Shown here in pieces: positions 1,043 to 64,000 of a stretch of DNA of 64,000 bases. The DNA is from Phymorhynchus buccinoides (taxonomy: Eukaryota > Mollusca > Gastropoda > Neogastropoda > Raphitomidae): assembly GCA_017654935.2 (NCBI GenBank), contig CM065693.1, positions 17,606,071 to 17,670,070 on the forward strand, read 5' to 3'. How positions within the stretch are numbered: position 1 is the stretch's first letter; every line of letters begins with the position of its first letter. The notes under the pieces were generated by a model. The model had not been told where the DNA came from and did no database searches. It was given only the letters and a program-made list of their open reading frames with translations. Made by a program: the position numbers and the translations under genes.

Positions 1043-6812
<5,770 letters not shown>

Positions 6813-7097
6813 CGTCTTGTTAGCTAAAAACAATGATAGAAGCTGAATTTGTAAATAACCCGAGTCCTTAATGAGTGTCTGGTTGGAGAATGAAGCTTAC
6901 AAATTTTGTAGGTTTGTTAGTAGGTTTAGATCATAATTTTGTGGCCCCCCCCCCAAAAGGCCCAATTCGCCATCACCTGGAGACAGAGTGTAGCAAAAAC
7001 TTATGAAGAATTAGGCCTATAGCATGCTTGTCGAGTGATCGTAGCACACACTTAACAATTGTCAATATATATAAAAAAACACTGATAAAATAGCGCG

Positions 7098-16331: not shown

Positions 16332-17043
16332 GAAATGTGCCAAAATAGCCAGTCAATCTGCATTGCACTGCAGGCAGAGTCTAACAATGTGTGTGGCCAG
16401 TTTGTGCTATGTTTTTCGTCTGTTTTAAGTTTGTGCGACAACCTGTCATACACTTGTGCTAGAAATCGTCGCAAGTTTTCTTATCAATTTTTAAGTCTCG
16501 ATCTCATACCAATTCTGGTTTTTGTGGGTTAGCTTGTAATCACAGTGATATTTTTATTTTGAAGAGCTCGTGCAAAGCTCGCTAATCACAGTGATATTTT
16601 TATTTTGAAGAGCTCCTGCAAAGCTCGCCTTCCTTGCTTATTTGCTCCGTGTTCGCTTTTATGAGCTTTGATCATAATGGTGTTTTTTTAAATTGTGTAC
16701 CACTGTATATTAAAGGCTGTTTTCGTTGCCCTGGTGCTTTGCCCGTCGAAGGTTGAAACAAATAAACCGAAATATCGCGCTATTTTATCAGTGTTTAAAA
16801 AAGAATTATATTGACAATTTTTAAGTGTTTGCTACGATCACTCGACAAGCATGCTATAGGCCTAATTCTTCATACGGTTTTGCTACACTCTGTCTCAAGG
16901 TGATGGCAAATTGCGCCACAACATTTTGATCTAAGCCTACAAACCTACAAAATTGGTCAGCTTAATTCTACAACCAGACATTCATCAAGGACTCGGGTTA
17001 TTTACAAATTCAGCTTCTATCATTGTTTTTAGCTAACAAGACG

Positions 17044-24134
<7,091 letters not shown>

Positions 24135-26062: not shown

Positions 26063-26562
26063 NNNNNNNNNNNNNNNNNNNNNNNNNNNNNNNNNNNNNN
26101 NNNNNNNNNNNNNNNNNNNNNNNNNNNNNNNNNNNNNNNNNNNNNNNNNNNNNNNNNNNNNNNNNNNNNNNNNNNNNNNNNNNNNNNNNNNNNNNNNNNN
26201 NNNNNNNNNNNNNNNNNNNNNNNNNNNNNNNNNNNNNNNNNNNNNNNNNNNNNNNNNNNNNNNNNNNNNNNNNNNNNNNNNNNNNNNNNNNNNNNNNNNN
26301 NNNNNNNNNNNNNNNNNNNNNNNNNNNNNNNNNNNNNNNNNNNNNNNNNNNNNNNNNNNNNNNNNNNNNNNNNNNNNNNNNNNNNNNNNNNNNNNNNNNN
26401 NNNNNNNNNNNNNNNNNNNNNNNNNNNNNNNNNNNNNNNNNNNNNNNNNNNNNNNNNNNNNNNNNNNNNNNNNNNNNNNNNNNNNNNNNNNNNNNNNNNN
26501 NNNNNNNNNNNNNNNNNNNNNNNNNNNNNNNNNNNNNNNNNNNNNNNNNNNNNNNNNNNNNN
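26063..26562. other. Assembly gap of exactly 500 N
   Basis: 500 consecutive N. The round length indicates a placeholder of unknown true size, so order and distance across it are not proven. Confidence 0.99.
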
Positions 26563-46496: not shown

Positions 46497-46621
46497 TAAA
46501 AGATATGCAGAGACAGAATGAGCGTGTTGGTAGGAAAGGTCTCTGGATCCCGGCAGCACCTTCGGGTCTCTCTTCGCCACTCTCTCGTTGACTCTTTCTC
46601 TCTTTTTCATTCTGTCTATGC

Positions 46622-48303
46622 TTATCTTTTACCTCTGTCTTTGTGTCTGTCAGGCTGGCCGTTGTCTTTGTGTCTGTCAGGCTGGCCGTTGTCTTTGTGT
46701 CTGTCAGGCTGGCCGTTGTCTTTGTGTCTGTCAGGCTGGCCGTTGTCTTTGTGTCTGTCAGGCTGGCCGTTGTCTTTGTGTCTGTCAGGCTGGCCGTTGT
46801 CTTTGTGTCTGTCAGGCTGGCCGTTGTCTTTGTGTCTGTCAGGCTGGCCGTTGTCTTTGTGTCTGTCAGGCTGGCCGTTGTCTTTGTGTCTGTCCAGGCT
46901 GGCCGTTGTCTTTGTGTCTGTCTGGCTGGCCGTTGTCTTTGTGTCTGTCAGGCTGGCCGTTGTCTTTGTGTCTGTCAGGCTGGCGTTGTCTTTGTGTCTG
47001 TCAGGCTGTCCGTTGTCTTTGTGTCTGTCAGGCTGGCCGTTGTACTTTGTGTCTGTCAGGCTGGCCGTTGTCTTTGTGTCTGTCAGGCTGGCCGTTGTCT
47101 GTGTGTCTGTCAGGCTGACCGTTGTCTTTGTGTCTGTCAGGCTGACCGTTGTCTTTGTGTCTGTCAGGCTGGCCGTTGTCTTTGTGTCTGTCAGGCTGGC
47201 CATTGTCTCTATGTCTGTCAGGCTGGCCGTTGTCTTTGTGTCTGTCAGGCTGACCGTTGTCTTTGTGTCTGTCAGGCTGGCCGTTGTCTTTGTGTCTGTC
47301 AGGCTGACCGTTGTCTTTGTGTCTGTCAGGCTGACCGTTGTCTTTGTGTCTGTCAGGCTGGCCGTTGTCTTTGTGTCTGTCAGGCTGACCGTTGTCTTTG
47401 TGTCTGTCAGGCTGGCCGTTGTCTGTGTGTCTGTCAGGCTGGCCGTTGTCTTTGTGTCTGTCAGGCTGACCGTTGTCTTTGTGTCTGTCAGGCTGGCCGT
47501 TGTCTTTGTGTCTGTCAGGCTGGCCGTTGTCTTTGTGTCTGTCAGGCTGGCCGTTGTCTTTGTGTCTGTCAGGCTGGCCGTTGTCTTTGTGTCTGTCAGG
47601 CTGACCGTTGTCTTTGTGTCTGTCAGGCTGGCCGTTGTCTTTGTGTCTTCAGGCTGGCCGTTGTCTTTGTGTCTGTCAGGCTGGCCGTTGTCTTTGTGTC
47701 TGTCAGGCTGGCCGTTGTCTTTGTGTCTGTCAGGCTGACCGTTGTCTTTGTGTCTGTCAGGCTGGCCGTTGTCTTTGTGTCTGTCAGGCTGTCCGTTGTC
47801 TTTGTGTCTGTCAGGCTGACCGTTGTCTTTGTGTCTGTCAGGCTGGCCGTTGTCTTTGTGTCTGTCAGGCTGGCCGTTGTCTTTGTGTCTGTCAGGCTGG
47901 CCGTTGTCTTTGTGTCTGTCAGGCTGGCCGTTGTCTTTGTGTCTGTCAGGCTGGCCGTTGTTTGTGTGTCTGTCAGGCTGGTCGTTGTCTTTGTGTCTGT
48001 CAGGCTGTTCGTTGTCTGTGAGTCTGTCTGACTGGCCGTTGTCTTTGTGTCTGTCAGGCTGGCCGTTGTCTTTGTGTCTGTCAGGCTGGCCGTTGTCTTT
48101 GTGTCTGTCAGGCTGGCCGTTGTCTTTGTGTCTGTCAGGCTGGCCGTTGTCTTTGTGTCTGTCTGGCTGTTCGTTGTCTGTGAGTCTGTCTGACTGGCCG
48201 TTGTCTTTGTGTGTCAGGCTGGCCGTTGTCTTTGTGTCTGTCTGGCTGGCCGTTGGCTTTGTGTGTCTATCAGGCTGTTCGTTGTCTGTGAGTCTGTCTG
48301 GCT
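46622..48303 (+). repeat. 27-bp minisatellite, about 62 units
   Basis: Unit GGCTGGCCGTTGTCTTTGTG + TCTGTCA. Variants (GGCTGACC, GGCTGTCC, GACTGGCC, TCTGTG) recur along the array, and a few units have 1-bp indels. Because the unit is 9 codons long and lacks stops in several frames, it is open on both strands: the minus strand reads repeats of TDTKTTASL or DRHKDNGQP. There is no start context, domain or splice evidence that any frame is used. It lies in an ABCA intron 0.25 kb before the Walker A exon. Confidence 0.92.
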
Positions 48304-48550
48304 GCATATGTTCGTGCACGCATGCGTGTGTACGTGCTTATGGGTATATATATATGTGTGTGTATGTGTGCGTGCGCGCGCGCGCGCGCGTGTGTGTGAT
48401 TATGATGGCGATACATTGCCCCATATTGCTCTCTCCTTTTGAGGAACACACAAATTGTAAACAAAATTTTTAACTACGTTTTGTGTTTTTCTTTATATCA
48501 AACCATAAACGCATTTACAACTCATTAATTGTCTGCTTTTTTTTAATCAG

Positions 48551-51934: not shown

Positions 51935-54092
51935 GGGTGTCTTCAATGTGGAATTTTGTGAACATAATGATGCCTGAGTCTGGAGTGTCCAGTCCTTAGC
52001 AGGATCAGTTGGTCTTGTCTGGAGAGGTGGTAGTAAGCATCACTGGCACAATGGTTTGGGTGTTGCTGTATCCATCTTCTTTTCAGCTTCTCTTTCACAA
52101 TGGCTTTGGCTTCACCAAATGTGACTTCCTTGTTGTCTTGCTGCTGCTTTCCTCCTTGCTTTGCAAGTATGTCCGCTTCATTGCTTGCTATATTGCAATG
52201 TGAGGGGATCCACTTGCTGACTGCTTTCTCTGTGGATTGCTGCAATTTCTGCAAGGATGTGGAGAGACTGTTCAGCTTTGTGTTTAAAACAAAATTATTA
52301 TTGAGCGCCTGCAACACAGACAGAGCATCAGAAAAGATGGCTACTTTCTTTGGGTATTTTCTTTTTCTTGAGTGATCTGGTCACGTACCACCTTCCTTCA
52401 GACTTGTAGTTGGTGGATAATTTCTATGGACTGGCAGAAGGTGGTACCGTCATTTAGGTAGATCGCTACACCCCCCCCACCCCCCCACTACCCCACCGCC
52501 ACCATTTCTTGTTGCATCTTCTGCGGAGTCATCAGTATAAGCAAGTGTCCATTTTTCAGCTGGGAATGCCTCACTGCTGTGGCTGAGTGTCAGTGCTTTC
52601 CTTGCAATCGCTGACTGTTGCTCTTTTCGAAAGATTCCTGGAATGCTTTGTCTGATTTCAGGAAAGCTCTCCCTCTTCCATGACAGCAGAACTGATGGTG
52701 TAGGAATGGGCGCGCTTGTCTGCTCCAGCAGGTCATGGTCTTGTCTCTCCAACTGACGGGTTTGGTGCAGAAAGCTTTCCCTCTTCAGTCTGCATTTGGT
52801 TGGTTGTGCCATTTGACTGTGCACGGGGGTGGTCTGCCAGCCTTTTATACTTTGTAGCCTGCATAAGGATCTTGGCATCCCTTCTATTTTCCAGGGTCTG
52901 GAGTCCAGTTAATGTTTCCACAGCAGGGACTGGTGTTGATTTCATGGCCCCAGTTACGATCCTTGAGGCCTAGTTATGTACTGTGCTGGCCTTCTCAACG
53001 TTTGTCTTTGCTGTTGTGCCCCATGCTGCCATCCCATACTCCAGGACTGGCCTGATTCTGCCGGTATATAGTCTCCTTTGTATGGAAAAGTCTGCTCCCC
53101 ACGATAAGCCTGAGAGTTTCTACATCAAGGCAAGGCGCAGTCTGGCTTTTATGGTGCACCTGTCAACCTGATATTTCCAGGTCATCCTCGGGTCAAAGGT
53201 GACTCTGAGGTAGGTGAGAGCCTTGTCTTGGGGCAGGGTTTGGCCTCCTATCGTCAGGTTGGCTTTTTGTTCTCGCGTAGACAGAGCGAAGATGGTGTAA
53301 GATGTCTTTTGTGCGTTGAGGGTTACCAGCCATCTTTTGGTCCAGTCTTCAATCTTCCTGAGGGCTTCCTGGATTCTCACAGTGGCTATCGTCAAGTACT
53401 CTGCAGAGCACCAGATGACCAGGTCATCAGCGTAAATGGCCCAGTGGATCTATCTGGGACATTCCCTCATGATGTCGTTCATGAAGATGATGAAAAGTGT
53501 TGAAGATAGCACTCCAAGCTGCGGGGCTTCATGTTTCAGAGTCTTCTTTGTGCTCTTTTGACGTTTGTTCCGCACGCATGCTTTTCTGTTTGTGAGGTAC
53601 TGGCAGATCCATTAGTACACATGGCCTCTGATTCCACTGTTTTGCCATTTCAGCTTCAGACTTTTCTTCCAGACTTTATCAAAGCCTTTTTCTAGATCTA
53701 TGCAAACTGCGAGTGGTTGTTTCTTGTCTTGGAGTGCATCCTCAATTTCCTAAGTGATGTAGGTGACTTGGTCTTTGGTGGATCTATGGTGTTTGAATCC
53801 AGCCTGTTCTGGGGCGATAATTTTCTCTTTTCCAAGTACCACACCAGCCTGGTGTTTATGAGTCTCTCCATCAACTTTCCCACACAGCTGGAAAGATTGA
53901 TTGGTCTGTAGCTGTCTGCCTTTACCTTGTATATTCCCATTTTTGTGAATTGGGATCATTGTGGCTTCCCTCCATATTCGCGGCACTGATGCATTCTTCC
54001 ATCTGGCATTGTAGGTGTTCAGCAGGACTTCTTTTGCTTTGGGCCCTAATTTCTGTAAGAGCTCATTGGTGACCTCGTCAGGTCTTGGTGCT
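51935..54092 (-). mobile_element. Decayed non-LTR retrotransposon (jockey/I-type, with RNase H)
   Basis: On the minus strand, 5' to 3', one can read RT segments (APRPDEVTNELLQKLG at about 54085; IWREATMIPIHKNG; SYRPINLSSCVGKLMERLI at about 53920; EQAGF.HRSTKDQVTYI), the catalytic WAIYADDLVIW (YADD = 53434-53423), a thumb segment (NAQKTSYTIFALSTREQKA; TYLRVTFDPRMTWK), then an RNase H-type motif, WIPSHCNIASNEADILAKQG, near 52200. The frame is broken repeatedly. The 5' end (EN domain and upstream) is missing; the copy is truncated next to the palindrome cluster. Confidence 0.8.
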
Positions 54093-54097
54093 GTTAA

Positions 54098-54286
54098 CCG
54101 CCGTTTTGTCCAAATTCCGCCGTTTTGTCTATAGACAAAACGGCGGGGTTAGATCCGCCGTTTTGTCCAAATTTTCTATTATGATTTGGACAAAACGGCG
54201 GTTCAACAATCCGCCGTTTTGTCTATAGACATAACGGCGGGTTGGACAAAACGGCGCCCGATTTTGAACCGCCGTTTTGTCCAAAT
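54098..54286. repeat. Cluster of CCGCCGTTTTGTC palindromes
   Basis: The core CCGCCGTTTTGTC (either strand) occurs eight times in 189 bp. 54117-54146 is a perfect 30-bp palindrome centred on CTATAG; 54211-54240 is the same with one mismatch; 54155-54172 and 54184-54201 form a perfect 18-bp inverted pair around an 11-nt loop; single copies lie at 54098, 54242 and 54269. No coding capacity. Confidence 0.9.
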
Positions 54287-54454
54287 GAAAGTTCATGGTA
54301 ACATTCATGTTTTATATTTAATGTATTGCGTGTTATGCGTTGTGTGCCTATGCATATGAATTGAGTGTTTATTTATCGTGTTGAGCTGCGCAAGTTAGAT
54401 TTGACATTGGCAATGGTTAGGGAAGAACTTCCAAATATAACTTGCGTAGGCCAC

Positions 54455-57865: not shown

Positions 57866-58532
57866 GTCATCGTCCTAGCTTAATTAGGTATTAAGAGACT
57901 CTGCGGAGAGCTGGATAACAGAGGGTTATTCCAGTCGCGCTTCTAGCTATGCTGATAGGAGCTTTGTAAAGCGTTCATCCCCGTTTCTGTTTTTATTTTT
58001 GAGAGAAAGTGTAATTAGTGTTTTCAAGGCTTTTTGACCTTTTGAAGTACATTGTGAATGCCATTTTGGGGAAATACATTCTTTGCCTGTAGTTCGTCCG
58101 CCTTCTGGAAGAAATGATAATGAAGGGACATATTTTTGGTGGTGAAGTTCTATGTGATATTTTCAGAAGAATTTAAGTGTCCATTCTTGTACCTGAAAAG
58201 CTGTGAAATTTTCAGAAGAATGTAATTGTTAATTTTTGTATTTGAAAGGCTAGAATTTTCTAAATGTATGAAAGCCTTGTTGTTCCAGAAAAAGTGAAAC
58301 CTTTTAGTTAATCCTTTTTGATGAAATATTACCCCTAGACTGAGTCGTGTGAAAAGGATTGTAAAGAAAGTGTTGTTCAGCGTTTTGGGGTTCTTGGAGA
58401 GAACCAAGTTTAAAGAGGGTGGGTTTTTACATCCCTGAAGAGGACTGTTGGGGAATTAGTTTTTGGGTAAACACAAAACTGTTGTTACTCTGGGAGTTCA
58501 AAACTAGGTTTTTGTTTTGGTTTTTCATACAG

Positions 58533-58589
58533 TCCTGATCCTGATCCTGATCCTGATCCTGATCCTGAACCTGAACCTGACCTGACCTG
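58533..58589 (+). repeat. TCCTGA hexamer microsatellite in the LTR
   Basis: (TCCTGA)n grading into AACCTGA and CCTGA units. Confidence 0.9.
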
Positions 58590-59071
58590 TTGCTGCCTGG
58601 TTGACCGCCCGGTCAACCGCTCTTTTCTCCGTTTCCGGCTGTGGGAGGCCGCCCGCCTTTCAGTCTGGCCCCGGGTTAGGCCCGATCTGTCTGTGTGCGT
58701 TCGGGCCAGGCTTCGACGTTCCTGTTGAGGAGTCTGGGGGCGACCTCTGCCGTCTCTCTTCTTTTGTTTCTGCTGCTGTAGCCTGCCCCAGGAGGGGGAG
58801 CAGTTTTTCTACTGACTTTTGTTTTCCCCTTTTGTCTTCTTCTTCGGACGCTCTGCTGTTTTTGTTGGACTTCTTTTCTTCGTCTGCCCTTTCGTCGTTT
58901 TTCCCTTCAATTTTGTGTTTCTGCTTACAAACTCTCTTTTAGTTATTCAGTTAAGTTGCCGGCTTTAGTTTATTCTTTGGACAAACTTTTGAATGCCATG
59001 TAAATTGTGTAGATAATTTGTTGAACATTGAGTGTATTGAATTGTGTAAGTGTGTGTGTGTGCTTGCTTAT

Positions 59072-59077
59072 AATAAA
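59072..59077 (+). promoter_or_regulatory. Probable LTR polyadenylation signal AATAAA
   Basis: AATAAA followed within 30 nt by a GT-rich stretch (TCTTGTTTTGTATTG, TGGTGTGCGCGTGTG). Position near the LTR 3' end fits the R region. Confidence 0.5.
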
Positions 59078-59224
59078 TAGTCTTGTTTTGTATTGTACTT
59101 CTGGTGTGCGCGTGTGCCTTCTCCTGTGAGTTTGTCTGTCTGGGCGTGCGAGACTCTCCTCGGGGTTCGCGATTTCCCTCTCCCGATCTCTGATCAGGAT
59201 CGAGCGGGGGATTTCGTGACATCT

Positions 59225-59240
59225 TGGGCTCGTCCGGGAT
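59225..59240 (+). promoter_or_regulatory. tRNA primer-binding site
   Basis: TGGGCTCGTCCGGGAT follows the LTR end by 3 nt. GGGCTCGTCCGGGAT is complementary to the 3' end of tRNA-Pro (as in the tRNA-Pro-primed murine retroviruses), but the two extra G expected for a full TGGGGG start are missing. The exact primer is therefore uncertain. Confidence 0.6.
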
Positions 59241-60482
59241 AGTCTCGCATCTGTCCCAGGCCGGCAGGTTCGCTGGGATAAGGCAGTGAATGTTTGGGGT
59301 GTGAATGTAAGGGTGGTTGGTTGGGAGACCGTGTAGAGGCAAGGCGGTCCGATTTTCCCTCATTGCTTAGGTCTTTTGGCCGGTTGAGTGGAAAATTTGT
59401 TGTGTTCGTTTTGTTTACTTGTTTGTCGGAGAGCGTGTGAAATATAGTTATTTAAGACCACTTATAGTTTTCTTTGTGCGTGTTCTAAAGTTTTGAGCGC
59501 ACACGCGTTTATAAAACAAACTGAGATAAAGTTTGTTTAGGGTTTTTCTTAGTTTGTTTTGGGAATAGGGGGTTAAAAGAGGGGATTAGTTAGGAATAAA
59601 GGGGGGAAAGAACTGGGGAAAAGAAATAGTTCTAGTTCCTTCAACAACAAAAAAGATCTCGACTGGTTGAGCTTTGGCTTGTTCAGTCTGAGAAATGATT
59701 CCCTCCCTTGACACACTAGTTTGCATGCATTGACTGAGTGCTGGTGTGTGTTAGTCTTATTTAAAAATTCATTAATGTGTTGTTGTTTTTTGTGTTCATA
59801 TATATGTACGCGCATGTTTAATTAGCAAGCTAAACCCGGACTATTCACTTGGAACTATTATCGTGTCTGTGACTGGTTCTATTTTGCAAGACAATTCTTG
59901 GTTTTGATGCATTGAAGTTGATTTGCACTGAATTGCTGTGTTCCGTGCATTGGATTGTGTCTTGCATTGAGTTACCATTTTTTATTCCATCGCTTGGTTA
60001 TTTGTTGAGTTGCATGTGAACCTGTGCGCGCACGCGTTTATGCTTAGTGTAGCTTGTGCTATAGAGCAAACTTGCTGGGATAAACCGGAACGTTTTTGTG
60101 TAACACAAACCGTAGTTTTTTATAACGCTTTCAAACACTGGGGTGTGTTCGTAGCTACATCGTGTTGTTAGTTTTACCGCAGAAAGTTACCGCAGGAAGT
60201 TACTGTGCGCTGTTTGGCCGTTGAGGTAGTTCGTGCGACCGCCTCCCGTGGTGCGCAATAGGGTTTTTGTGCAAACGTGGTTGTTGTCCACGCGGGTCGT
60301 TTAGTCGCAGAAGCGTTCTACGCTGTGTAAATTAGCGCAATAGTGGTTAGTGTGGTAAAGCTTTATGCGGAGTAGTTTAGTTAGTGTTTGGTTTAGTGTG
60401 GTTTAATTCGACGTAGTTTGTGGGATTTCCTGCGCGCGTTGCATAACCGTTTGTGTTGAAAAAAAAAAAGAAGAAGAAAAAA
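59241..60482 (+). other. Untranslated leader of the LTR element
   Basis: 1.24 kb between primer-binding site and gag start codon. Includes recurring GCGC(G)CACGCGTTTAT words (about 59496-59512 and 60027-60040) and an A-rich stretch just before the ATG. No ORF of note. Confidence 0.5.
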
Positions 60483-63400
60483 ATGGCAAGTCACGAGTAT
60501 GATTTAAGGTCGCGCAGTGGGGCTATGTGGGACCTGTCGACGGATCCTTCTGTACCGACTACGCCCTCAGCTGTTTCTACCTCCGTCGTTACTACCGTTG
60601 TGCCCTCACCCCCATCTTCTTCCATGACTTCTGTGGCTACGGCCATGCACACTCCGGTCGTCCATGCTGCAGTTGACCATGGAGGAGCACGGTCTAGGGT
60701 TGGACCAGTTTCGACTCCCCTTAGCCTAAGTCGTGGTAGGGGAATCTTTCTTAAGTCAGGTGCCATGACAGAGGAGAAGCCTGGAGAGCACCATCCTTCC
60801 TCGAAAGGAAACAGCGAGTTTTCCATGTTCATGGCTGCCATGGCTCAGATGGAGCAGCAAAGAAGGGAAGAGATGGCTGAGGTTGAACAGCTTAGAAGAG
60901 AGGAAAAAGAAGAGCAGGAAAGACTTAGGAAGGAGGAGGAGGAAAAGAAAGAACAGCTTAGAAGAGAGGAAAAAGAAGAGCAGGAAAGACTTAGGAGAGA
61001 GGAGCGAGCTGAACAGAAGGAGGAAGAGGAAAAGAAAGAACAACGAAGGAGAGAGGAGCGAGCTGAACAGAAGGAGGAAGAAGAAAAGAAAGAACAGCTT
61101 AGAAGAGAGGAAAAAGAAGAGCAGGAAAGACTTAGGAAGGAAGAGGAAGAGAGGAAAGATCAGCGATGGAGAGAGGAAATGAAGCTGGAGAGGGAACTAA
61201 GAAAAGAGGAAAGAGAAGAGAAAGAACGCAGGTGGAGAGAAGAGAAAGAGGAACGTGAGGCGATTCGCCAAGAGGAAGTGAGAAGGAGAGAAAAGCTGGA
61301 ACAAGGACGTGAGTCAGGAAGCAAGTCTAAGGTGTCGACCCCTGTACTCAAGCTTCCAGAACTGAAACCCGGCGAAGATATTGACTTGTTCCTAGAACAT
61401 TTCGAGAAAATGGCTAAGATCTACCTCTTAACAGATGATGAGAAACTCATCCATCTGTCATCTTCCCTCACCGGCAGAGCCAAGGAAGCCTGTTTCAAGA
61501 TGGGAGAGGACGAGACCTATGATAATTTACAGAAGGTTCTTCGTCAACAGTTTCGCCTTTCGCCTGAGACCTATCGCCGGAAGTTCCGCAATAGTAAGAA
61601 GGAGTCCAGCGAAACCTTCTATCAGTTTGGGACAAGGCTTCGTCAGGCCCTGAAGCACTGGGAAGAGCTCTCTGAGGCCGAGCTGAAGGATTTAATCCTC
61701 ATTGAGCAACTCTACAACACCGTGTCCCCTGAGCTCCGAATACGGATGAGTGAGAAGAAGCCGACTACCTTCGATGCTGCCATCGAGATCGCAGAAACTT
61801 ACTCGGAGGCTAGGAGAACCGTCGCCTCCAGGGGATCTGCCAGAGATAGTCAGACCCCTGTCTCCACTCCTCTCCAGGAAACTACTCCTTCGTCTCCAAC
61901 AAAATCGCCAACGAGGGACCAAAAGGTGTGCTTCCAGTGCCGAACCCCAGGGCACATTAGGAGGTTCTGTCCCGATTTGCGGAGACCGTCCTTCCAGGAT
62001 AGCGGTCCTCGTAGTGGGAAAGCCACCGGAGGCCGAAGAGCCCTCGCTCAATTTGTCTCGTCACCACGCAGGGACGGATGTCCTGTCTTTCTCTCCAGAG
62101 TGGCTGGGAAGGTAGCTGACAGCGTCAGAGATACCGGCGCTACGGCCATCTTTATGGATGAGAACCTCATACCTTCTGGCGCACTCAAAGGACCAGAATG
62201 TGAAGTGTCGGGAATTGAGGCTCAGTTTGTGTGCCGTCGCCCCACCTACTTGGTCGAGATGTGTACCCCTTACTTCGAAGGCAAAGTATGGGCAGTGGCT
62301 CTTAAGCGGCCAGCATATTCATTGCTGCTAGGGAATACTGTGTGCTTTGGAGATGGGACGGAGCAGACTCTAGCGTCAATTCTGCCAGAGAAAGTCTACG
62401 TGGGCGCGGTTACTCGCGCCATGGCCAAGAAGGTGGATGAACTCCAACCCATTGTCCGGCCGGGACTGGAAGTGTTTGCGGAGGAAGTGACACCACAAGT
62501 GCTCCGCAAGCTTCAGTTGCAGGACAGCCAGCTGGATAGGGTGAGGGAGTTAGTGGACGCTGAGCCTAGGGCTACCAAGACCGGCACTATCTCTTTCAAA
62601 GAAGAGAAGGGTATCCTTTATCGCCACTACCAGAATGACAGGACAAACGCCAAGCAGATCGTTGTACCCCAGGGACTGGTCCCGTCGGTGCTGAAAGTAG
62701 CTCATGACGCACCCATGGCTGGACACATGGGCACCCGCCGGACTCAAGAAAGGGTACAACAGGATTTCTACTGGCCCCTAATGTCTAGAGACGTCAAGAC
62801 GTACTGTCGGACCTGCGACCCCTGCCAACGGACTATCCCGAGGGGAAAGAACCGTAGGGTGCCACTGGGATCTGTCCCGGTCGTGAAAGAACCCTTTGCG
62901 AAGGTGGGCGTCGATTTGATCGGACCCATTGCCCCCCCATCCGCCCGTGGCCACCGCTACGTCCTAGTGCAGGTGGACTACGCCACCCGCTACCCGGAAG
63001 CAGTTCCCCTTAAGAACATTGACGCTGTGACGGTAGCGGAAGCTCTTTGGAATATGTGGACGCGGACAGGGATTCCTAAGAAGGTGTTCACAGACCGAGG
63101 CACCCAATTCATGTCCGAGGTCATGAGAGAGGTCTACAAGTTATTGTCTGTTGACCGTCAGTCAACTACACCATATCATGCACAGTCAAACGGACTCGTC
63201 GAGAGATTCAACGGGACCTTGAAGCTCATGTTAAAGAGACTGTGCAGGGACAAACCTCGAGAGTGGGATCGCCTCATCCCAGCAGTTCTTTTCGCCTACC
63301 GTGAGGTACCACAGGAGAGCATGCGGTTCTCTCCGTTCGAACTGCTGTACGGACGAACGGTGCGGGGTCCTTCGTCTGTCTTGAGAGAACTGTGGGAGAG

Positions 63401-64000
63401 AGAGGACTTTGAACCAGAGGCTCGAGAAGAATGTGGCTATGTCATTAGCCTGCGAAACAAGATCGAGGATGTATGTGACTTGGCACAACAGCATCTGGAG
63501 AACGCTGCCAGGAAGTACAAGAAGTTGTACGACCGCTCGGCTAGAGACAAGTGCTTCCAACCCGGAGATGAAGTCTTGTTGCTCCTGCCACTGAAGAAGA
63601 ACAAGCTCCAGCTCGAGTGGCAGGGACCATTCAAGGTGATCCACCGAATTGGGAACTGCGACTATCGAATCAAAGTGCGAGGCAAGGAGAAGCTTTATCA
63701 CGCAAACCTGCTGAAGCAGTACTTCAGGAGGGAGCAGGTCAATGCGGGATCTACACCCATGGTTGTGGAAGAGGATGTGGAGGAGCCTTCTGTGGAGAGA
63801 ACTGACATCCCAGTGGTGCCCATCAAGTCGGAGGAAACGTGGAGAGATGTATCTGTGGCAGAAGATCTTTCTCCTCGCCAACAAGAAGAAGCTAGGGCGC
63901 TTTGTCAAGAGTTCTCCGACATCCTCTCTGACAAGCCATTGAGGTGTATTGTGGGAGGCTGCAGTCTCACCCTCTCTGAAGAAAAGCCGGTACGGGTGAA
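60483..64000 (+). CDS. Gag-Pol polyprotein of a Gmr1-like Ty3/Gypsy retrotransposon (partial, runs off window)
   Basis: One open frame of 1172 codons without stop or frameshift. In order: a Ser/Thr/Pro-rich start; a Glu/Lys/Arg-rich repetitive coiled coil (about 122-282); a Gag capsid-like region from about 287 (LKLPELKPGEDIDLFLEHFE); a zinc knuckle C483-x2-C486-x4-H491-x4-C496; a protease active site DTGA (550-553); an integrase HHCC zinc domain (H741, H748, C778, C781); an integrase core D811, D871, E907 (35 residues between the last two); a GPF motif (1048-1050) near the integrase C-terminus; then LSPRQQEEARALCQEFSDI (from 1129), which resembles the linker before Gypsy reverse transcriptase. 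No reverse transcriptase lies between protease and integrase, so the order is PR-INT-(RT), as in Gmr1. The frame looks recently active. Confidence 0.9.
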   Translation, partial: MASHEYDLRSRSGAMWDLSTDPSVPTTPSAVSTSVVTTVVPSPPSSSMTSVATAMHTPVVHAAVDHGGARSRVGPVSTPLSLSRGRGIFLKSGAMTEEKPGEHHPSSKGNSEFSMFMAAMAQMEQQRREEMAEVEQLRREEKEEQERLRKEEEEKKEQLRREEKEEQERLRREERAEQKEEEEKKEQRRREERAEQKEEEEKKEQLRREEKEEQERLRKEEEERKDQRWREEMKLERELRKEEREEKERRWREEKEEREAIRQEEVRRREKLEQGRESGSKSKVSTPVLKLPELKPGEDIDLFLEHFEKMAKIYLLTDDEKLIHLSSSLTGRAKEACFKMGEDETYDNLQKVLRQQFRLSPETYRRKFRNSKKESSETFYQFGTRLRQALKHWEELSEAELKDLILIEQLYNTVSPELRIRMSEKKPTTFDAAIEIAETYSEARRTVASRGSARDSQTPVSTPLQETTPSSPTKSPTRDQKVCFQCRTPGHIRRFCPDLRRPSFQDSGPRSGKATGGRRALAQFVSSPRRDGCPVFLSRVAGKVADSVRDTGATAIFMDENLIPSGALKGPECEVSGIEAQFVCRRPTYLVEMCTPYFEGKVWAVALKRPAYSLLLGNTVCFGDGTEQTLASILPEKVYVGAVTRAMAKKVDELQPIVRPGLEVFAEEVTPQVLRKLQLQDSQLDRVRELVDAEPRATKTGTISFKEEKGILYRHYQNDRTNAKQIVVPQGLVPSVLKVAHDAPMAGHMGTRRTQERVQQDFYWPLMSRDVKTYCRTCDPCQRTIPRGKNRRVPLGSVPVVKEPFAKVGVDLIGPIAPPSARGHRYVLVQVDYATRYPEAVPLKNIDAVTVAEALWNMWTRTGIPKKVFTDRGTQFMSEVMREVYKLLSVDRQSTTPYHAQSNGLVERFNGTLKLMLKRLCRDKPREWDRLIPAVLFAYREVPQESMRFSPFELLYGRTVRGPSSVLRELWEREDFEPEAREECGYVISLRNKIEDVCDLAQQHLENAARKYKKLYDRSARDKCFQPGDEVLLLLPLKKNKLQLEWQGPFKVIHRIGNCDYRIKVRGKEKLYHANLLKQYFRREQVNAGSTPMVVEEDVEEPSVERTDIPVVPIKSEETWRDVSVAEDLSPRQQEEARALCQEFSDILSDKPLRCIVGGCSLTLSEEKPVRV

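Follow-up and report, generated by a model that had tools for sequence, protein, structure and literature searches.

A stop-free Gag-Pol frame in a snail as the probable 5' part of a Gmr1-like Ty3/Gypsy retrotransposon

The open frame at the downstream end of the window, i.e. of the whole stretch of 64,000 nucleotides analysed here, very probably belongs to the 5' part of a Gmr1-like Ty3/Gypsy LTR retrotransposon of a caenogastropod snail, in which Gag, protease, integrase, reverse transcriptase (RT) and RNase H follow one another in a single frame and RT, RNase H and the 3' LTR lie beyond the window. The frame and its capsid, protease and integrase anatomy are seen in the window and the domain order is seen in relatives. 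The features, all on the + strand, are:

59072..59077, +: AATAAA, possible polyadenylation signal in the 5' LTR (by eye)
59147..59249, +: 13-nt inverted arms (59147-59159 and 59237-59249) flanking the LTR end and primer site
59220..59221, +: ..GTGACA, putative 3' boundary of the 5' LTR (by eye)
59225..59240, +: putative primer-binding site TGGGCTCGTCCGGGAT (sequence read)
60483..63998, +: Gag-Pol frame, ATG start, 1172 codons, stop-free, running off the window end
60852..61245, +: R/E/K/Q-rich charged repeats in Gag (repeat family D3), probable coiled coil, fold predicted
61326..61850, +: capsid part of Gag, its SCAN-type C-terminal lobe spanning 61563-61814 (residues 361-444)
61926..61973, +: zinc knuckle of CCHC type at residues 482-497 (E 0.067, under the curated cut-off)
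62085..62381, +: aspartic protease with its RDTGA motif (residues 549-553; structure model)
62664..62834, +: integrase H2C2 zinc domain, residues 728-784 (Pfam Integrase_H2C2, E 4.1e-21)
62889..63203, +: integrase catalytic core (Pfam rve at 62889-63179, residues 803-899, E 5.2e-9)
63588..63722, +: integrase C-terminal SH3-like domain, GPF at 63624-63632 (residues 1048-1050)
63864..63998, +: linker into RT, clipped by the window end (alignment to relatives)

The undamaged frame described in the initial annotation was confirmed as far as the window reaches, as no stop interrupts 60483-63998 and the catalytic residues of both protease and integrase are all kept. Judged from the sequence, such a stop-free frame is compatible with recent activity. 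In the alignment to the nearest relative, P0001, the last window residue (1172) corresponds to residue 1078, and the window ends ~ 40 residues short of the RVT_1 domain of that protein, which starts at residue 1118 (Pfam). Within Gag, the charged repeats recur at spacings of 33, 33, 33, 75, 66 and 66, and the capsid is of the SCAN type, a feature tied to the Gmr1 clade; in Foldseek nothing matched the capsid at E < 0.001. In the structure model of residues 516-709, a retropepsin leads into a short linker that is helical in part. No Pfam family matched these residues, protease included, in the window copy, and the 50 Foldseek rows shown for the protease model were HIV/FIV proteases or human DDI proteins, with a best E of 7.1e-5.

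Downstream of the protease, the full integrase that had been proposed was located residue by residue, with HHCC at H741, H748, C778 and C781, the DDE triad at D811, D871 and E907 (E907 codon at 63201-63203) and the GPF motif, and the Pfam and PDB matches agree with it. Indeed, the Integrase_H2C2 and rve matches both exceed the curated cut-off, and the C-terminus matches SH3_Tf2-1 (3.2e-5) and Integrase_p58_C (7.9e-5), both under it. In the PDB search, foamy-virus integrase was found over residues 723-963 (2.7e-28) as well as Ty3 integrase (5.4e-24). Hence, the H2C2, DDE and GPF hallmarks of Ty3/Gypsy (Metaviridae) integrases are all present in the window frame.

Upstream of the frame, TGGGCTCGTCCGGGAT at 59225-59240 resembles what we take to be the complement of the 3' end of tRNA-Pro. 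The RNA fold of 59100-59290, the region holding the inverted arms, is very stable (z = -4.36 vs 200 shuffles), and the arms could form a U5-leader stem. A search for the LTR start through the inverted counterpart of the LTR end gave 62 matches, itself included, vs 74 expected, and so did not locate it. No second copy of 58000-64000 was found within the window (blastn, 1e-5), and neither were tRNA genes (bacterial settings) or Rfam families.

Elsewhere in the window, two similar TLR-like leucine-rich-repeat frames lie in opposite orientation at 4743-6896 (-) and 16966-19104 (+); no TIR part was seen by eye in either, and the one that was searched had its best matches in Babylonia areolata proteins, at 55%, in line with the mollusc host supposed in the initial annotation and making a caenogastropod likely. 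A run of N occupies 26063-26562, a long tandem array open in several frames extends over 46500-48340, and clustered copies of CCGCCGTTTTGTC.. in both orientations, resembling a small inverted-repeat element, are found at 54090-54290.

The domain order was examined in the window and in its relatives. From D550 to D811 there are 261 residues in the window, too few for RT and RNase H, so neither lies between protease and integrase. In a first search, 7982 candidates were scored and the best 120 of 2411 matches were listed, the best sharing 66% identity across the part searched, while those named by organism come from the snails Babylonia areolata, Littorina saxatilis and Batillaria attramentaria. 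The protease-integrase spacing could be measured in 110 relatives and its median is also 261 residues (range 222-430). According to profiles built from these first-search relatives, integrase precedes RT/RNase H in 115 of the 120 best matches and RT goes unmatched in the remaining five; the RT-first order does not occur among them. Under stricter motif criteria, the integrase E is followed by an RT xDD motif in 107 of the 120 listed, and in no case does an RT motif fall between the protease and the integrase. Furthermore, a second search, for which 12 divergent members served as queries, listed the best 120 of 149 matches, of which 109 were new: 74 integrase-first, 26 with integrase only, three with RT only and six RT-first, the latter surfacing in this search alone. 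Since both match lists stem from integrase-first queries, these counts are skewed towards that order.

Pfam scans gave the same picture. All six complete relatives scanned from the first search are integrase-first, and the six second-search proteins from amphioxus, sea cucumber, goby, coral, tick and scallop each display SCAN, H2C2, rve, RVT_1 and RNase H in this order (6/6). No SCAN match was obtained in the three RT-first proteins, out of six, that were scanned. P0001, P0002 and P0004 are 1497, 1517 and 1551 aa long, similar to the combined Gag and Pol of fish Gmr1-4, given as 1506-1634 aa, with LTRs of 337-518 bp, in the passages of PMC11117352 used here. The tail after the window integrase, which had been read as the N-terminal linker of RT, does align to the stretch preceding the RT core in relatives (residues 1090-1172; median identity of 32.5% to 116 of the 120 listed); a Pfam scan of 63864..63998 matched no family. 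The claim that integrase comes before RT thus stands in two parts, as the direct passage from protease to integrase is seen in the window and RT after integrase is seen in the relatives, not in the window itself. In one pattern scan of viral contigs, eight matches were obtained and none was a relative.

Additional domains were observed in some of these proteins. A Macro domain ends the integrase-first Gag-Pol P0247 (residues 1729-1830, after RNase H) and the Littorina saxatilis Gag-Pol P0088 (residues 991-1092, after integrase), and P0086 also carries one (precomputed Pfam); a captured domain of Macro type would be unusual for LTR elements. In Mugilogobius chulae, the integrase-first Gag-Pol P0303 is joined to a Ricin_B lectin domain (residues 1787-1912), maybe by fusion of gene models.

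Phylogeny had been suggested as a check, and trees were built from chosen subsets of the 229 listed retroelement proteins and the window. In a careful RT tree with 39 chosen rows, the four RT-first rows are set apart (97/93) from the 35 that are integrase-first, which come from snails, scallop, tick, coral, amphioxus, fish and sea cucumber. Eleven rows had been left out of this tree, as long branches (P0342, P0348, P0320), as near-copies (P0014, P0268, P0287, P0298), by thinning (P0274, P0288) or for too short an RT match (P0282, P0302). On the integrase-first side, 13 rows, among them those of amphioxus, two fish and sea cucumber, form one branch (98/95); the other 22, which include the coral, tick, scallop and snail elements, form a second (100/96). 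In a quick RT tree of 50 rows, long branches included, the split by order has a support of only 58 and the amphioxus/fish/sea-cucumber branch also held an oyster element, hence it is not purely deuterostome. The closest relatives are placed by their RT among the integrase-first rows (support of 97/93, and of 58 in the quick analysis), in a tree composed without Gmr1-labelled sequences.

The window integrase itself falls with the integrase-first elements. Indeed, it groups with P0001-P0003 (100/97), then with Babylonia P0004 (97/93) and, beyond Babylonia, with Littorina (98/91). In the integrase tree of 44 rows, built without P0348 or the short matches, Pimephales P0293 and Crassostrea P0302 among them, and including five of the six RT-first proteins, the order label changes twice, owing to the long-branch P0339. 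When P0339 was dropped, 39 integrase-first rows of the 43 stood on one side (95/94) vs four RT-first. A mantis-shrimp element is placed beside sea cucumber in the integrase tree, and neither the 44-row nor the 43-row tree resolves the two branches of the RT tree. Integrase and RT distances among the 110 relatives are correlated (r = 0.71, 5995 pairs), as expected from joint descent.

Could the odd order be only apparent, in a Gypsy element of the usual order that had lost RT and RNase H between protease and integrase? We hold this to be highly improbable: no RT lies inside the window and five listed relatives are without an RT match, as a deletion would have it, but the spacing equals the median of the relatives, RT follows integrase in 115 of the 120 listed and the post-integrase tail aligns to their RT linker. 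A Gmr1-like copy with an intact front, in which RT or the 3' LTR is missing or broken past the window, is unlikely in our view, since against the fact that the sequence read stops at 64000 there is a stop-free frame of 3.5 kb in which the catalytic residues of integrase and protease are all kept.

Elements of Ty1/Copia are integrase-first by default, and the order alone would suit them. However, the integrase matches H2C2/rve and GPF-type C-terminal profiles as well as foamy-virus and Ty3 integrases, the RT of the closest relative matches RVT_1 with Ty3 as its best solved structure (7.1e-102), the Gag is SCAN-type, and Pfam scans of the window frame and six relatives found no Copia-type families; we give this assignment practically no credence. 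It is also extremely improbable that domestication has made the frame a host gene carrying SCAN or integrase parts. Such a gene would keep its frame intact and host genes can carry SCAN domains, but a complete Gag-protease-integrase in a single frame, a putative LTR end and primer site upstream and many full-length Gag-Pol relatives speak for a retrotransposon. The Gmr1-like assignment of the initial annotation is instead supported by the domain order of the relatives, the trees and the SCAN-type Gag, and the frame with its domains and the capsid and protease folds speak for it as well.

For the window copy we infer RT and RNase H, an LTR and primer site, proteolysis and mobility. In a Gmr1-like element of this kind, the transcript would be translated as a single polyprotein, the capsid would assemble particles and the protease would release the enzymes from the polyprotein. 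Starting at a tRNA primer, RT/RNase H would then copy the RNA, and the integrase would insert the cDNA through its HHCC, DDE and GPF parts.

Deuterostomes provided the first description of the Gmr1 group, and Goodwin and Poulter reportedly treated this clade of Ty3/Gypsy retrotransposons in 2002. The snail element resembles this clade by its SCAN-type Gag, its single Gag-Pol frame, its Gypsy-type integrase and the position of integrase upstream of RT seen in its relatives. It differs by its snail host, by a protease without TIHG-like flap and, through the RT of its snail relatives, by a branch shared with scallop, tick and coral, apart from that of amphioxus, fish and sea cucumber. Ty3 has an integrase related to that of the window and an RT/RNase H related to those of the closest relative; in usual-order Gypsy elements such as Ty3, however, integrase comes last. 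The name Gmr1-like rests on the order, the SCAN domain and the company of integrase-first elements of deuterostomes, since no Gmr1-labelled reference was among the sequences compared.

The TIHG flap of Gmr-1 proteases is mentioned in PMC2577118 in a passing remark, with data not shown there. Of the 210 proteins in which a D[TS]G motif was present, none has the exact flap, and neither has the window frame. Nine proteins, one of them without usable motif, were compared by eye: the flap place reads CIHG in amphioxus P0278 and CVHG in fish P0293, both close to TIHG, and no TIHG-like flap was seen in the window, P0001, sea cucumber, coral, tick or scallop proteases. This contrast between amphioxus/fish and snail/coral/tick/scallop is a possible marker of two integrase-first lineages, and as a pattern of residues it hints that the snail lineage may be distinct from classical Gmr1. 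Because the TIHG-type flap is absent we name the element Gmr1-like and not Gmr1, without treating the flap as defining.

A mollusc copy had been thought notable, a view that is weakened by precedents in other protostomes. Indeed, passages of PMC3587641 (2013) present four crustacean elements, GyRex4, Gychoro2, GyMaja1 and GyLiva4, as the first Gmr1-like elements in protostomes, with a Gmr1 placement in print, and PMC8220671 (2021) is quoted as assigning the annelid family LGF3, from another phylum, to Gmr1; both likenesses are by description only. In the part of PMC8556966 used here, Gmr1 is among clades of several phyla and the annelid Gmr1 clade is absent from its polychaete set. What remains of that view is that the 2018 mollusc survey (PMC6238403) tabulates 21 Gypsy clades without Gmr1 among them, as far as the portion drawn on here goes. 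Its mollusc elements, MolGy1-16, were classified by RT/RNase H, and snail Gmr1-like elements may thus hide under the MolGy name. In the titles and abstract openings of the literature searched, which left most subscription journals outside its coverage, no Gmr1 elements in molluscs are reported. On the side of Gag, excerpts of PMC3424704 derive SCAN from Gmr1-like Gag, and those of PMC4131045 place SCAN, among frog LTR elements, in Gmr only.

The snail element is a further member of the already known Gmr1-like type, which has many snail relatives in the databases, and possibly comes from a lineage apart from classical Gmr1. We also put forward, as a scenario that is plausible but falls slightly short of probable, that the integrase-first order arose once, early in animals, and left two old RT lineages: one of amphioxus, fish and sea cucumber (with oyster and mantis shrimp in other trees), and one of coral, tick, scallop and snail. 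The latter, which would include the window element, would be the sister of classical Gmr1; it would differ in its protease flap, be widespread among snails and have gone unrecognised as integrase-first in the mollusc survey.

The window copy itself is ordinary and its relatives are more informative. Through it, a group whose first description came from deuterostomes gains a clear example from a snail, and there is a gap between a mollusc survey based on RT/RNase H, without Gmr1, and databases that are yet rich in snail elements of integrase-first order. Together, the relatives suggest a single origin of the odd domain order and a spread of it from corals to fish.
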